The notes below the pieces were generated by a model, which saw nothing but the letters and a program-made list of their open reading frames with translations, searched no databases and had not been told where the DNA came from. From Drouetiella hepatica Uher 2000/2452 (GTDB taxonomy: Bacteria > Cyanobacteriota > Cyanobacteriia > Elainellales > Elainellaceae): a stretch of DNA of 64,000 nucleotides. This document shows, one piece after another, positions 3,807-61,341 of the stretch (position 1 is its first letter; the number at the start of each line of letters is the position of its first letter). The stretch is from assembly GCA_019359505.1 (NCBI GenBank), contig JAHHHD010000001.1, positions 186,001 to 250,000 on the forward strand. Direction: 5' to 3'. The translations under genes and the position numbers were made by a program.

Positions 3807-3898
3807 TATAGCAACCGCCAAGGCGATTAGGACGGGGACATTTTGGGTGGGGCGCGCAGCGCCCCACCCAAAATGTCTTAAGCAAACTGGCGACAGCT
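3807..3898. repeat. Palindromic dispersed repeat, family A copy 1
   Basis: The element starts TATAGCAACCGCCAAGGCG, runs through TTAGGACGGGGAC, and then forms a perfect 18-bp hairpin (3838-3855 with 3859-3876) with a 3-nt GCA loop. It ends GCAAACTGGCGACAGCT. Related copies are at 13847, 19243, 21324 and 61244. It sits 12 bp beyond the tadA stop codon. Confidence 0.85.
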
Positions 3899-3910
3899 CT
3901 GTTCAGCAGC

Positions 3911-13823: not shown

Positions 13824-13846
13824 GTCTAGCTATCTTATGTGGCGAT

Positions 13847-13932
13847 CGCTAAAGCGGTTGGGATGGGGACATTTTGGGTGGGATGCGAAGCGCTCCACCC
13901 AAAATGTTCTGGGCAAACTGGCGACAGCTGTA
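13847..13932. repeat. Palindromic dispersed repeat, family A copy 2
   Basis: This copy matches copy 1 from GGGGACATTTTGGGTGG through ACCCAAAATGT and ends GGGCAAACTGGCGACAGCTGTA. The left end is degraded (GCTAAAGCGGTTGGGATGGGG). The hairpin (13869-13907) has about 13 clean base pairs with a mismatched apex. It lies between the psbK terminator and the convergent peroxiredoxin gene. Confidence 0.8.
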
Positions 13933-19092: not shown

Positions 19093-19242
19093 CTATGATT
19101 CCTATGATCTTCAAAGCGGTAAGTTTCACACAATATATAGCAGGTTTCTTGTGAAAGTCTTGATTAGATTCAAACAAGACTTTGAGATCTTCACACAAAC
19201 TACACAAGCCTAGTAAAGACATTGCCATAGCTCTACTTAAGC

Positions 19243-19329
19243 CATAGCTGTCGCCAGTCTGTTTTTAGTGGGGCGCGAAGCGCTCCACTAAAATGTCCCC
19301 GTCCTAACCGCCTTGGCGGTTACTGTAGA
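19243..19329. repeat. Palindromic dispersed repeat, family A copy 3
   Basis: In opposite orientation to copy 1. It runs ATAGCTGTCGCCAGTCTG, then a hairpin with GTGGGGCGCGAAGCGCTCCAC, then AAATGTCCCCGTCCTAACCG and CCTTGGCGGTTACTGTAGA. Arm and tag sequences match the other family A copies. Confidence 0.82.
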
Positions 19330-21323: not shown

Positions 21324-21418
21324 TATAGCTGTCGCCAGTTTGCTTGGGACATTTTTAGTGGGGCGCTTCGTGCCCCACTAAAAATGTCTCCGTCCCAGCC
21401 GCCTTGGCAGTTGCTATA
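21324..21418. repeat. Palindromic dispersed repeat, family A copy 4 (best complete copy)
   Basis: The 95-bp unit begins TATAGCTGTCGCCAGTTTGC and ends GCCTTGGCAGTTGCTATA, giving terminal TATAGC/GCTATA inverted ends. The centre is GACATTTTTAGTGGGGC, a TTC-type apex and its complement. It lies about 100 bp beyond the moeA stop. Confidence 0.87.
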
Positions 21419-27742: not shown

Positions 27743-27870
27743 CCTACGCTAGATCCAAGCTTCCGTAAACTGTTCCGATCGCGTTTTGCTCTGTCTTGCA
27801 TCGGTCTGGTAGTGACAAATCTGGGCATAATTTTTTGGAAATCCGCGCTCTCTTCAAAAAAATCACACAC

Positions 27871-27971
27871 ATAGCGCTACGCGCTTAGATCCAATGAGTT
27901 ATTTTTTGAGAGCCGCACGGAGCGCGGCTCTCAAAAAATAACTCGTCCTAACTCAATCATGTAATGCTATA
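27871..27971. repeat. Palindromic dispersed repeat, family B copy 1
   Basis: The element begins ATAGCGCTACGCGCTTAGAT and ends TCATGTAATGCTATAC. The perfect 21-bp hairpin (27896-27916 with 27924-27944) reads GAGTTATTTTTTGAGAGCCGC in the left arm up to its last base. The complement of the tag GTTAGGACGAG follows the right arm. It lies between the ABC ATPase stop and the GUN4 gene. Confidence 0.85.
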
Positions 27972-29344: not shown

Positions 29345-29397
29345 AGAGGGCGCTTGATTAAATTGATTAAGGGGCTTCTACTAGGGTAAATGCTTTC

Positions 29398-29474
29398 CAG
29401 CAAATGCTCTGACCAGCAAATGCTCTGACCAGCAAATGTTCTGACCAGCAAATGCTCTGACCAGCAAATGTTCT
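29398..29474. repeat. Tandem 16-bp repeat, five units
   Basis: Units of CAGCAAATGCTCTGAC begin at 29398, 29414, 29430, 29446 and 29462; units three and five have T for C (ATGTTCT), and the last is cut short. The array ends at the stop codon of the DUF4079 gene, so it lies in the 3' untranslated part of that transcript. Confidence 0.9.
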
Positions 29475-29910
29475 AAGGCAGGTACTTTTGCACCACCAGC
29501 CAACCTGTAAACGTCACGAATGAAAAGCCTAGAAAAAGCGCGACATTCAGTCCCACATGCAGCGGTCTTGCCCAAGGGCGTTTGGGGCTAATTTGGCTGG
29601 CGCTCCAGGCGGAGGCGATTGTCAAACTCACTACCGCCAGACCTGCGGGTAAATGCGCCGAATGTCCTAGGTTGCCATAGTAGCCGATCGTGCCCATCAG
29701 ACCTACTGCCAGCAGTAGCAGCACTAGACCTACCATTGTGCCGCCAATGCCGTAGTGTAAAGGTCGCAGCCATCGAGGACGAGGCTGCCCCTGCACCCGT
29801 GTCAAAGACATCCATCCGCCCGTCGCTATCAGCAAAACATAGGCAGTCAAGGATAGACCCATTGACCAGGCTGCAATCCGCCAGAGCCAAAGAAAGGAAG
29901 GAAGATTCAC
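29473..29910 (-). CDS. DUF4079 family membrane protein
   Basis: Cyanobacterial four-helix membrane protein, 145 aa from GTG 29910. The helices are about 5-30 (FLWLWRIAAWSMGLSLTAYVLL), 48-75 (LHYGIGGTMVGLVLLLLAVGLMG), 85-105 (LPAGLAVVSLTIASAWSA) and 118-140 (VGLNVALFLGFSFVTFTGWLVV). The histidines in RPLHYGIGG, LGHSAHLP and RPLHVGLN are spaced as possible heme ligands, a feature shared with cytochrome b561-like bundles, but heme binding is inference. The family is widely conserved in cyanobacteria and unassigned. The coding region runs straight into the tandem repeat at its 3' end. Confidence 0.8.
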   Translation of the reverse strand: MNLPSFLWLWRIAAWSMGLSLTAYVLLIATGGWMSLTRVQGQPRPRWLRPLHYGIGGTMVGLVLLLLAVGLMGTIGYYGNLGHSAHLPAGLAVVSLTIASAWSASQISPKRPWARPLHVGLNVALFLGFSFVTFTGWLVVQKYLP

Positions 29911-38410: not shown

Positions 38411-38680
38411 TATAGAACAAGTGTTAGGACGGGGAAGTTTTTGTGGGTGCGCGGAGCGCACCCACAAAAACTTCCTAAGAGGATCTTTGAAAAGTCCAAT
38501 TATTTAGTAGCGAAACGTTTTAAATCCCCCTCAATCCCCGCGCTATAGCGCCGCTGCGCTAGAAAAAAGGGGGACTTTGAGTTCGTTTCCCCCTTTTTTA
38601 AGGGGGCAAGGGGGGATCAAGAGGTGCCTAAAATCACAGCCGACCACTCTTTAAACATCTTCTAAGAGTAATGGCTATAG
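38411..38680. repeat. Palindromic element (family D) interrupted by a second element
   Basis: It starts CTATAGAACAAGTGTTAGGA with the TTAGGACGGGG tag, then a perfect 20-bp hairpin (38433-38452 with 38456-38475, loop GGA). Its sequence resumes at 38666 and ends GGCTATAG, after removal of the inserted 184-bp element. Confidence 0.75.
38479..38662. mobile_element. MITE-like element with GAGGAT inverted ends, copy 1
   Basis: The left end reads GAGGATCTTTGAAAAGTCC; the reverse complement of the right end is GAAGATGTTTAAAGAGTGG, matching at 14 of 19 positions. TAA flanks both ends (38476-38478, 38663-38665), as expected for a 3-bp target duplication. The inside is a C-rich/G-rich imperfect palindrome. 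No transposase is encoded. A second copy with the same ends and flanking GTGCCTAAAATC block is at 62947-63073. Confidence 0.72.
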
Positions 38681-41388: not shown

Positions 41389-41418
41389 AAATCTTTAATC
41401 CGGCGTTGCTGATTTTAT

Positions 41419-41473
41419 GGGCAAGTTTTTTTGAAGGAGGGCGCAGAGCGCCCTCCTTCAAAAAAACTTGCCC
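41419..41473. repeat. Perfect 26-bp palindromic hairpin (family E)
   Basis: Left arm 41419-41444 and right arm 41448-41473 pair perfectly around the 3-nt loop AGA. The apex GGCGC-AGA-GCGCC matches the style of families A and D. It follows the RTX-like gene by about 30 bp and could end its transcript, although no T run follows on the + strand. Confidence 0.88.
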
Positions 41474-41537
41474 AGATTATCCAGATTGCGTCCATTTACA
41501 GTAGCTTATAGAACAGTGCAATGATTCTGCTGCTGTT

Positions 41538-52020: not shown

Positions 52021-52120
52021 TATGGCATTACTTAATTGAGTTAGGACGAGTTATTTTTGAGAGCCGCGCGGAGCGCAGCTCTCAAAAATAACTCATTGGA
52101 TCTAAGCGCGTAGCGCCATA
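52021..52120. repeat. Palindromic dispersed repeat, family B copy 2
   Basis: Inverted orientation to copy 1. It begins TATGGCATTACTTAATTGAG, then TTAGGACGAGTTATTTTTGA and a nearly perfect 20-bp hairpin (19 of 20 pairs), and ends AAGCGCGTAGCGCCATA. The ends TATGGC/GCCATA are inverted. Confidence 0.85.
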
Positions 52121-53697: not shown

Positions 53698-55818
53698 CTA
53701 ACCTGCATCCGTATTAGTGTCTGCATCCGATAGGTTAACGGATGAACGACGGCGACGGCGACGGCGAGGAGCATCGGTATCAGAGAGGGTATCCTCAGCC
53801 TCAGCCCCTTGATTGCTCACCTCAGGAGCGTTTTTCAGGACAACAGGCTCAGAAATTTGAATCTCTGCAAAGGATTCGGTAAGTGGCTCTCTATCCTCAA
53901 ATTCTTCTTCTGCGAGTTCTTCAGCATCTAGCTCTAACGCTGGAGTAGAGTCTGAGAAAGATACGTCGGCAGAGCGAATACTTTGCCCCGGTAAAGTCAC
54001 AGAAATAATGGCAGACTTTGGATCTTTAATAGGCTCTGTCGCCAATACCATTGGAGAGATACCCATCAGAGCATAAATTTCCTGCTCTTCGGGGGTCATT
54101 TCCACAGAAATGACTTGAGGCGGTTCAGCTACAGGCTTTTCTCGGCGTGCAGCGGTGCGTCCCCGCTCAGGCTTCTCAGGTCGAGGTTCCCTCACATTGC
54201 GAGGGACAGGAGCAGGCTCCTCAATCACAGGCAGCGGCAGCGGCTCATCTTCGGTCTCTATTTCTGACCTCAGCGTAGGTGCAACGCTTCCACGAATTAC
54301 AGGTTCACCCACCTTGAGGCGAGTCCGACGACGACGACGGCTATCCTTACTACGCTCTTGGTAATTGGGGTGGTTGGTTAAATCTAGCTCCTGCAAGTCG
54401 GCAGAGGCGTCTAAATCGAGATTCTCTTGCTCAAATCCCGCTCTTTCGTGGGTTCTTTCGTTAGATCTTTCAGTGACTCTCTCACCCGATCGCTCCCAAT
54501 TGTCCCGCAGGGCAGGGATGCGAGATTCTGCGGCGGTAGCTGTCCGTGAAGCTTCTATTGGCTCTGCGATCTCATGATCCATCTCGCCAGGGAGATGAAT
54601 AATCAGACCCGTACTGCTGCAAGTTTGGCAAGGGCGACCAAACAGCTCGTAGATATTTTGTCCTTGGCGCTTGCGGGTCAATTCGACCAGACCTAGCTCA
54701 GTCAATTGGGCAATTTGAGGACGGGCTTTATCTGACCTCAATGCCTTATTAAACTGCTCCAAAACCTGAAGCTGATCGCGGCGGGCATCCATGTCGATGA
54801 AATCGACGATGATGATGCCTGCAATATTGCGAAGCCGCAACTGTCGAGCAATTTCGGTGGCCGCCTCAGAGTTTGTCCACAGGACGGTTTCACGTGCCGT
54901 TGCGGAACGGGTGAATGAGCCTGAGTTGACATCAATTACAGTCAGAGCCTCAGTCCGCTCAATAATGATGTATCCCCCAGAAGCCAGATCAACACGGGGC
55001 TTGAGGGCTTCTCGAATGGCGGCGTTGACTCGGAAATACTCCAGGATGGGCTGGCGATCGCGGTGGTGGTCAATCAGCACGCCCTGGGGCGCTTTGCCAC
55101 CACTCCAGTTGACTAGGTGCTGCTTAACGCGCTTCAGCCCGGTATGGGAATCTACGACAATGCGGTTGACATCGGTGCTGTAGACATCCCGCAAAACCCG
55201 CTGAATGAAATCATCATCTCGGTTAAGCAAGCTAGGCGGACGGGTTGTCAGCGCCTCTTGCTGAATGTTTTCCCACTGCTTTTGCAGGGTTTCCAGGTCT
55301 TCAATAATCGCTTCTTCAGGCATTCCCTCTGCTTCGGTTCGCACCAGCAGCCCCATGCCAGGAGGCTTAACTAAGATAGCAAGTGCTCGCAGACGGTTGC
55401 GCTCGGCTTCGCTGCGGATGCGTCGAGAGAGATTGACGCCGCGACCAAACGGCATCAGCACTAGATAGCGACCGGGCAGACTAATGTTTCCGGTCAGTCG
55501 GGGCCCTTTGTTCCCCGTTGGCTCCTTCATAATTTGCACCAGAACCTTCTGCTGAGGAGCCAGCAACTCGGTAATGGAGGCGGCTGACTTTCTCAGCCGC
55601 ACAGGTCCTAAATCGGTAACGTGAATAAATCCGTTGCGCTCGCTGTCTCCAATGTTGACGAAAGCAGCATCAATTCCAGGGAGAACGTTCTCAACAATTC
55701 CGAGGTAAATGTCGCTAACCTGATGGTTTCCCTTTGCAACAATAAGTTCTTGAATCTGATCTTCGGAAAAGACAGCCGCGATCCGGTGCTGTTCGGCGAT
55801 AATAATTTGCTTTGACAT
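53698..55818 (-). CDS. rne: Ribonuclease E/G
   Basis: Endonuclease of RNA processing and decay, 706 aa. The S1-like domain is near 35-110 (VSDIYLGIVENVLPGIDAAF), the DNase I-like catalytic part includes LTVIDVNSGSFTRSATA (Asp) and IIIVDFIDMDARRDQ, and the zinc-link CQTCSST is present (Cys pair). The C-terminal about 300 residues are disordered, acidic and Arg/Pro-rich. Near the end a run of seven Arg (RRRRRRRSSVNLS) matches the cyanobacterial motif that binds polynucleotide phosphorylase. A 511-bp non-coding leader precedes it. Confidence 0.96.
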   Translation of the reverse strand: MSKQIIIAEQHRIAAVFSEDQIQELIVAKGNHQVSDIYLGIVENVLPGIDAAFVNIGDSERNGFIHVTDLGPVRLRKSAASITELLAPQQKVLVQIMKEPTGNKGPRLTGNISLPGRYLVLMPFGRGVNLSRRIRSEAERNRLRALAILVKPPGMGLLVRTEAEGMPEEAIIEDLETLQKQWENIQQEALTTRPPSLLNRDDDFIQRVLRDVYSTDVNRIVVDSHTGLKRVKQHLVNWSGGKAPQGVLIDHHRDRQPILEYFRVNAAIREALKPRVDLASGGYIIIERTEALTVIDVNSGSFTRSATARETVLWTNSEAATEIARQLRLRNIAGIIIVDFIDMDARRDQLQVLEQFNKALRSDKARPQIAQLTELGLVELTRKRQGQNIYELFGRPCQTCSSTGLIIHLPGEMDHEIAEPIEASRTATAAESRIPALRDNWERSGERVTERSNERTHERAGFEQENLDLDASADLQELDLTNHPNYQERSKDSRRRRRTRLKVGEPVIRGSVAPTLRSEIETEDEPLPLPVIEEPAPVPRNVREPRPEKPERGRTAARREKPVAEPPQVISVEMTPEEQEIYALMGISPMVLATEPIKDPKSAIISVTLPGQSIRSADVSFSDSTPALELDAEELAEEEFEDREPLTESFAEIQISEPVVLKNAPEVSNQGAEAEDTLSDTDAPRRRRRRRSSVNLSDADTNTDAG

Positions 55819-61243: not shown

Positions 61244-61341
61244 TATGGCAACCGCCAAGGCGGGTTAGGACGGGGACATTTAGGGTGGGGGCGCTAAGCG
61301 CCCCCACCCTAAATGTCCTCAGAAAACTGGCGATATTCATA
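61244..61341. repeat. Palindromic dispersed repeat, family A copy 5
   Basis: Starts TATGGCAACCGCCAAGGCGG, has TTAGGACGGGGACATTTAGG and a perfect hairpin with the apex GGGGGCGCTAAGCGCCCCC, and ends AAACTGGCGATATTCATA. The stem letters differ from copy 1 on both arms in a compensating way (TTTAGGG/CCCTAAA versus TTTTGGG/CCCAAAA). Confidence 0.85.

Follow-up and report, generated by a model that had tools for sequence, protein, structure and literature searches.

Family A, judged from its ends and one empty insertion site, is an IS630-derived MITE family, and the two arms of its central hairpin change in concert. IS630 is a DDE, Tc1/mariner-type family. The kind of element, the IS630 MITE, is already known; the concerted arms are what is new. 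The account as a whole, in which a non-autonomous IS630-type MITE has its arms homogenised in place by template switching, is very probably correct.

The window is the whole 64-kb stretch that was analysed, positions 186001-250000 of contig C5 in a genome (G000) of 6.42 Mb and 87 contigs. The host is a cyanobacterium, as indicated by the RNase E at 53698-55818, whose score with the cyanobacterial model NF052586 was 1020.7 bits, above the cut-off of 900. The octamer GCGATCGC, which we take to be a cyanobacterial marker, recurs among the repeats of the window. An earlier note had reported five copies of family A, and all five were recovered at the same positions or within a few bases of them:

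3807-3902, plus strand: copy 1; left end 3807-3834; perfect hairpin 3837-3877 with 19-bp arms and loop GCA; right end decayed (GCTCTG for GCTATA) and extending to 3902.
13842-13932, plus strand: copy 2; left end decayed, true start at about 13842 rather than the 13847 of the earlier note; one-sided changes near the loop.
19242-19329, minus strand: copy 3; one arm shortened by a deletion of about 9 bp.
21324-21418, minus strand: copy 4, the feature under study; right end 21324-21350, hairpin 21348-21388, left end 21391-21418; scored with a 7-nt loop, from one mismatch beside the 3-nt loop TTC.
61244-61341, plus strand: copy 5; hairpin 61274-61318 with 21-bp perfect arms and an extra G/C pair in both arms.

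The copies at 21324-21418 and 61244-61341 are complete. Loops of 3 nt, previously ascribed to the whole set, are present in most copies and not in all. The element is short (92-95 bp), multicopy and without coding capacity.

Ends, insertion site and copy number

Read inward, both ends of family A follow the plan TATAGC-N14-TTAGGAC, followed by G at the left end and by A at the right end. The motif TTAGGACGGGGACA had been described as a free tag; this is corrected here, as TTAGGAC belongs to the transposon end, of which it forms the inner portion. The same plan is found on IS630 elements of the host genome, including L016-L018 and L020, and further ends of the plan lie in L013, L016, L020, L022, L024 and L026. 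Two of these elements are as follows:

L017, 129-1092: IS630 element of 964 bp; ends TATAGCTATAGCCAGCCTAGTTAGGACG and TATAGCGGTAGCCACCTCCATTAGGACA.
L018, 1439-2401: IS630 element with the same end plan.

The ends of the closest IS630 in G000 are similar to those of family A, not identical. Genome-wide, the plan with up to two mismatches occurred 720 times, compared with 201 in the reversed control. The left end TATAGCAACCGCCAAGGCGGTTAGGACG matches IS630 elements of 964-990 bp from other cyanobacteria (L210, L226, L239 and others) at 28/28 positions of their ends, and elements coding for PF01710 and PF13358 carry these 28/28 ends in the named cyanobacteria. The exact 19-mer of the left end was found in 44 stretches of the named genomes, and the TATAGC-N14-TTAGGAC plan (up to two mismatches) was present in all of them except L220 and L253 (42/44). 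The named genomes supplied eight (L210, L215, L222, L224, L226, L233, L236 and L239) of the ten elements of 963-990 bp that were inspected, and G000 the other two. IS630-type reading frames were present in all ten, though disrupted in some. DDE_3 (PF13358) was above the Pfam cut-off in four named elements and in L017, and all N-terminal frames tested (L215, L239, L226 and L017) exceeded the cut-off for HTH_Tnp_IS630 (PF01710). The candidate partner transposase with matching ends, for which a search had been proposed, is thus of DDE type (IS630), not of REP or Y1 type. In addition, seven contigs of G000 (C15, C17, C20, C21, C35, C37 and C40) begin, at about base 100, inside an TATAGCGCTACG...TTAGGAC IS630 end; the assembly was therefore probably broken at these starts by a high-copy, near-identical IS630.

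The insertion site at window position 3807 is unoccupied in both sister species, G002 and G003, which supports the earlier view that the repeats are mobile. One TA is present at the empty site, which reads GTGCTGTC-TA-TTCGGT in G002, with flanks 84% identical, and GTGCTGTC-TA-TTCAGT in G003. The occupied site in G000 reads GTGCTGTC-TA-[TAGC...GCTC]-TG-TTCAGC. These reads indicate a TA on both sides of the insert, the right one since mutated to TG. The apparent TA target duplication, which rests on this one clean site compared with two sister species, is the target signature of IS630. Cut-and-paste movement of IS630 into TA has been established for ISY100, according to the portion of PMC2170065 consulted. 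Family A is classified as an IS630-derived MITE because the IS630 ends are common to both and the empty site has a single TA.

At the L186 copies and at window 13842, the element is also absent in the relatives, with flanks too diverged for a clean junction. No orthologous copy pairs were found when the G002 and G003 copies were compared with about 1.3 Mb of G000 stretches. At L107, L120 and L070 an intergenic region is shared with hairpins in the relatives, but the targets are different or the sequences differ throughout; L207 has no hairpin. These four shared-position loci represent independent insertions or are unrelated. No shared hairpins were found in the 39.5 kb searched, and the loci fetched from G006 and G024 belong to different families with no common flank. 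Near position 7779 of L196, a different hairpin with 25-bp arms is apparently nested inside a family A element.

A scan with the two ends alone was performed over 864 kb, comprising the window, the larger parts of contigs C5 and C22 and the beginning of C27. It returned 52 matches, representing 51 distinct copies (L171 was read twice), and the reversed patterns returned none. Scaled to the genome, this corresponds to about 370-380 copies, and the earlier expectation of hundreds per genome agrees with this figure of about 370. The suggested genome search with a covariance model, here built from 13 copies, gave at least 150 matches, with E <= 4.5e-15 for all 150 that were scored, and the weakest of the 150 listed for G000 scored 78.7 bits. 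Chance is excluded for family A because of the end scan (52 versus 0 reversed) and the E-values of the model. In the sister species, 1 of 51 model matches in G003 (106 bits) and 2 of 15 in G002, whose genome is 72% complete, reached family A strength, so the family expanded mainly in the G000 lineage.

Changes along the hairpin stem

Stem analysis used the 34 of the 52 end-scan hits whose core is 44 nt long, with the other 18 left out; these copies, found by their ends alone, are an unbiased sample. Columns are numbered from 0 in the alignment; the basal pairs are columns 29-30, the mid stem columns 31-41 and the loop-proximal pairs columns 42-48. Two-sided changes that kept Watson-Crick pairing numbered 52 in the mid stem, where 7 cells were unpaired. 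The loop-proximal pairs contained 3 two-sided and 21 one-sided changes, and the basal pairs 5 and 15, respectively. The difference between mid stem and tip gave a Fisher p=7e-11; this and the other p-values are indicative, as cells count copies and not independent events. The proposal that the stem varies from copy to copy and keeps its pairing is thus true of the mid stem, but not of the loop-proximal and basal pairs, which change mostly on one side. The compensatory change TTTTGGG/CCCAAAA versus TTTAGGG/CCCTAAA noted earlier is real and common, and it lies at columns 37/38, which are subfamily variants. Without these two columns the counts are 19/6 in the mid stem versus 3/21 at the tip (p=1e-5). 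When the right arm was shuffled among copies, two-sided changes averaged 1.7 and did not exceed 7 in 1000 shuffles, compared with the 19 observed. The unpaired rate per pair was 1.9% in the mid stem, 8.8% at the tip and 22% at the base, and the ends of the same 34 copies differ from their consensus at 9.9% of sites.

The pattern was sharper in 124 copies picked by the covariance model, a set selected by that model itself. It was less sharp in a 118-row union, with 44/20 in the mid stem (outside 37/38) versus 16/51 at the tip (p=3e-7), and one-sided mid-stem changes were commoner in these rows (20 versus 44 two-sided) than among the 124 model-picked copies. A 154-row union is biased by locus fetching, and at least three of its rows look like second readings (L171, L037 and L117). 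Transversions were found in 29/65 rows among the two-sided changes. In the 34 unbiased copies, the mid-stem changes fell into 18 distinct combinations when sorted by column, pair and 37/38 background, and most of the two-sided changes outside 37/38 were private to one copy.

Further traces of copying between the arms were found. The loops occur in both orientations (GAA in 49 and TTC in 28 of 118 rows) while the ends keep theirs. The arms changed by equal length in ten rows. By reading, equal indels are clear inside both arms of about seven copies (L178, L179, L208, L045, L055, L119 and window 61244); the remaining equal-length rows are near the tip or less certain. In 14 rows the arms are unequal, and several of these cases lie at the flank or are second readings; another 14 did not fold with a loop of 3 nt. 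In four copies, L108, L127, L179 and L200, pairing extends into flanks that are normally unlike, private changes included. The left GTTTGCTGAGGACA of L108 is the complement of its own right TGTCCTCAGCAAAC, where the consensus is TGTCCTAAGC. Likewise, GCTTCGGACA pairs against TGTCCGAAGC in L127 and GCTAGGGACA against TGTCCCTAGC in L179, and a right-side insert CCTTCCTCA in L200 matches its own altered left flank TGAGGAAGG. We read these four flanks as templated copies made within the element.

Proposed template switching and the alternatives

The tip and mid-stem profile, the loop flips, the equal indels and the copied flanks all favour template switching during replication (quasipalindrome correction), which fits better than selection or a palindrome-dependent enzyme. 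An IS630-family DDE transposase would recognise the TATAGC-N14-TTAGGAC ends and presumably act on the MITE, and a cut-and-paste reaction would carry the 92-95 bp element into TA and duplicate that target. Between the ends lies the hairpin, whose arms are 20 bp long and whose loop is 3 nt. After insertion or between transpositions, its arms would be homogenised in place by template switching of the DNA polymerase. The nascent strand may fold back through the loop-proximal GC pairs, use its own other arm as the template for the outer arm, and then return. The loop-proximal pairs would serve as the primer, and hence remain uncorrected; the outer end would be spared once the polymerase is back on its template. 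Mid-stem mutations would be spread to both arms or erased, while those at tip and base stay one-sided, because the proposed fold-back copies only the middle. Loops would flip, and copying would sometimes overrun the palindrome. Quasipalindromes are affected by exonucleases and sbcCD. We infer in-place change from private mutations, not from before/after pairs.

Arm homogenisation and spacer inversion by template switching have been established in yeast genes, GAA/TTC being among the examples in the consulted portion of PMC8604942, and the process has been proposed for RNA stems. In the sections of that latter study consulted (Monttinen and Loytynoja 2022; PMC8794818), the authors call their own evidence that template switching maintains existing stems circumstantial.

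Selection could also keep the stem paired, for an RNA, a DNA cruciform or a need of transposition, and the earlier note had suggested selection on structure. The two-sided changes agree with this, as do the presence of similar cores in MITEs from other genomes, including ones whose ends are unrelated, and the location of the copies, which are nearly all intergenic: 1 of 52 hit midpoints falls inside an ORF of at least 150 aa, though such ORFs span 77% of the 864 kb. However, the loop-proximal GC pairs, which are key to folding, change one-sidedly, and the ends of the same copies are off consensus at about one site in ten. Stepwise compensation does not yield equal-size indels or copied flanks, and the frequent transversions do not follow a G-U path. 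Family A had no match in Rfam; only a tRNA matched in the window. Selection is not needed, leaves the mid-stem-only pairing, the equal indels and the copied flanks unexplained, and is considered unlikely.

A still less probable explanation is that the two-sided variants arose in a few master copies and were spread by transposition, with no in-place correction. Columns 37/38 do define large subfamilies on both arms, as expected of master copies, but most other two-sided changes are private. Neutral decay should also hit the mid stem like the tip and the ends, contrary to the unpaired rates above, and the copied flanks bear each copy's own mutations. Movement of REP/RAYT-type elements by a palindrome-recognising Y1 transposase is barely credible: the copies are palindromic, intergenic and numerous and the genome has seven PF01797 hits, yet the stem is 20 bp with no GTAG tag beside it, the ends are of DDE type with a TA duplication, and none of the seven Y1 loci has family A sequence or ends, so that a REP/Y1 origin was rejected. 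None of the seven lies inside the window, as previously noted for REP-type transposases. The palindrome-dependent copying enzyme proposed earlier is likewise not supported; the ends are those of IS630 DDE elements.

Paired stem changes are usually taken as proof of a selected structure; family A has them without a known function, in many scattered copies, and the position profile and the copied flanks point to a mutation process. The family makes the maintenance of stems by template switching directly testable, and it calls for caution in covariation-based RNA discovery in bacterial intergenic DNA. As a more tentative idea, long hairpins with a 3-nt loop and a GC tip might be a replication attractor. 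Template switching in MITEs might keep arms perfect without selection and carry mutations across, so that unrelated MITE families (IS630 TATAGC ends here, CTAG ends elsewhere) converge on or share a core. Such elements might then be natural recorders of switch start and end points genome-wide.

Other hairpin elements and known systems

A second hairpin MITE family (family B) and other hairpins are present in the window:

27870-27971, minus strand: family B copy; end plan TATAGC-N14-TTAGGACG; hairpin and loop differ from family A.
52021-52120, plus strand: family B copy; end plan TATAGC-N14-TTAGGACG.
38411-38480, plus strand: third hairpin element; hairpin 38433-38475 with TTAGGACG next to its stem; the left end is the only clear one.
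41418-41474: free-standing perfect hairpin with 27-bp arms and loop AGA, without TATAGC ends.
29381-29476: tandem array of the 16-bp unit CCAGCAAATGCTCTGA.

Family B has IS630 ends like those of TATAGCGCTACG elements. Its loops are nearly equally GGA (14) and TCC (11) among 31 rows; by eye, these rows repeat the pattern of family A, with the one-sided changes concentrated at the tip and the base and the T-runs lengthened or shortened on both arms together. The 864 kb contain 128 perfect hairpins with arms of at least 13 bp, 92 of them with 3-nt loops, compared with none in three block-shuffled controls. They include several families with other ends (such as ACCAATTTAA..., GATTTTA... and ACTTACGCAAG...), many with T-runs on the 5' arm. 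Among the 99 hairpins with arms of at least 17 bp, the 5' arm has a keto bias (T>A in 78/99, G>C in 88/99), which was 21/31 and 23/31, respectively, after removal of shared 9-mers. An intrinsic terminator was rejected for family A, as the 5' arm of its hairpin carries the T-runs and the 3' arm the A-runs, opposite to a terminator.

The covariance model matched 15 of 39 other genomes at E <= 0.001, many weakly (related hairpin elements in other cyanobacteria). The 20 loci read in G027 share the end plan of family A and carry a sister hairpin. In G006, the odd-numbered loci L331-L357 are MITEs with CTAGTAGGCTG/CTAGTNCGCTGAGGCGG (CTAG-type) ends around a core resembling that of family A; the tip-anchored similarity is 12/17 (P=0.01 by shuffling, one of eleven comparisons, uncorrected). 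G024 has more than 20 copies of a hairpin element, all at 49.4 bits, and this identical score suggests a very recent burst.

Among open-licence papers, no report was found of template-switch homogenisation in a bacterial MITE family, or of a dispersed natural family recording template switching position by position. Family A shares TA duplication and terminal inverted repeats with IS630/Tc1-mariner elements, of which ISY100 of Synechocystis is the studied member and which have a DDE transposase with an N-terminal HTH; it differs in having no gene, a length of 92-95 bp and an inner hairpin. Like the bacterial MITEs Correia/NEMIS, RUP and Nezha, it is short and noncoding, with IS-like ends and many intergenic copies. 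Its 20-bp perfect core hairpin and concerted arms set it apart from Correia/NEMIS and RUP, and presumably also from Nezha. CGTC-tagged REPs (Di Nocera 2013) have CGTC beside the stem, as family A does (CCCCGTCCTAA). In the portion of the literature consulted (PMC3733652), they are defined by stems of 8-9 bp, loops of 4-5 nt and a CCA tail, without transposon ends; this identity was rejected, as family A has 20 bp, a loop of 3 nt and IS630 ends. The same portion describes TATAGGA...TCCTATA palindromes around GTAG-15 dimers in Anabaena variabilis, a TATAG-ended frame around a hairpin as in family A, but the hairpin there is a GTAG REP dimer. Quasipalindrome template-switch mutations in E. coli, yeast and rRNA stems show the same arm homogenisation and GAA/TTC spacer inversion; in family A, they are seen across copies of one dispersed element that numbers about 370 in the genome, which gives a profile along the stem.
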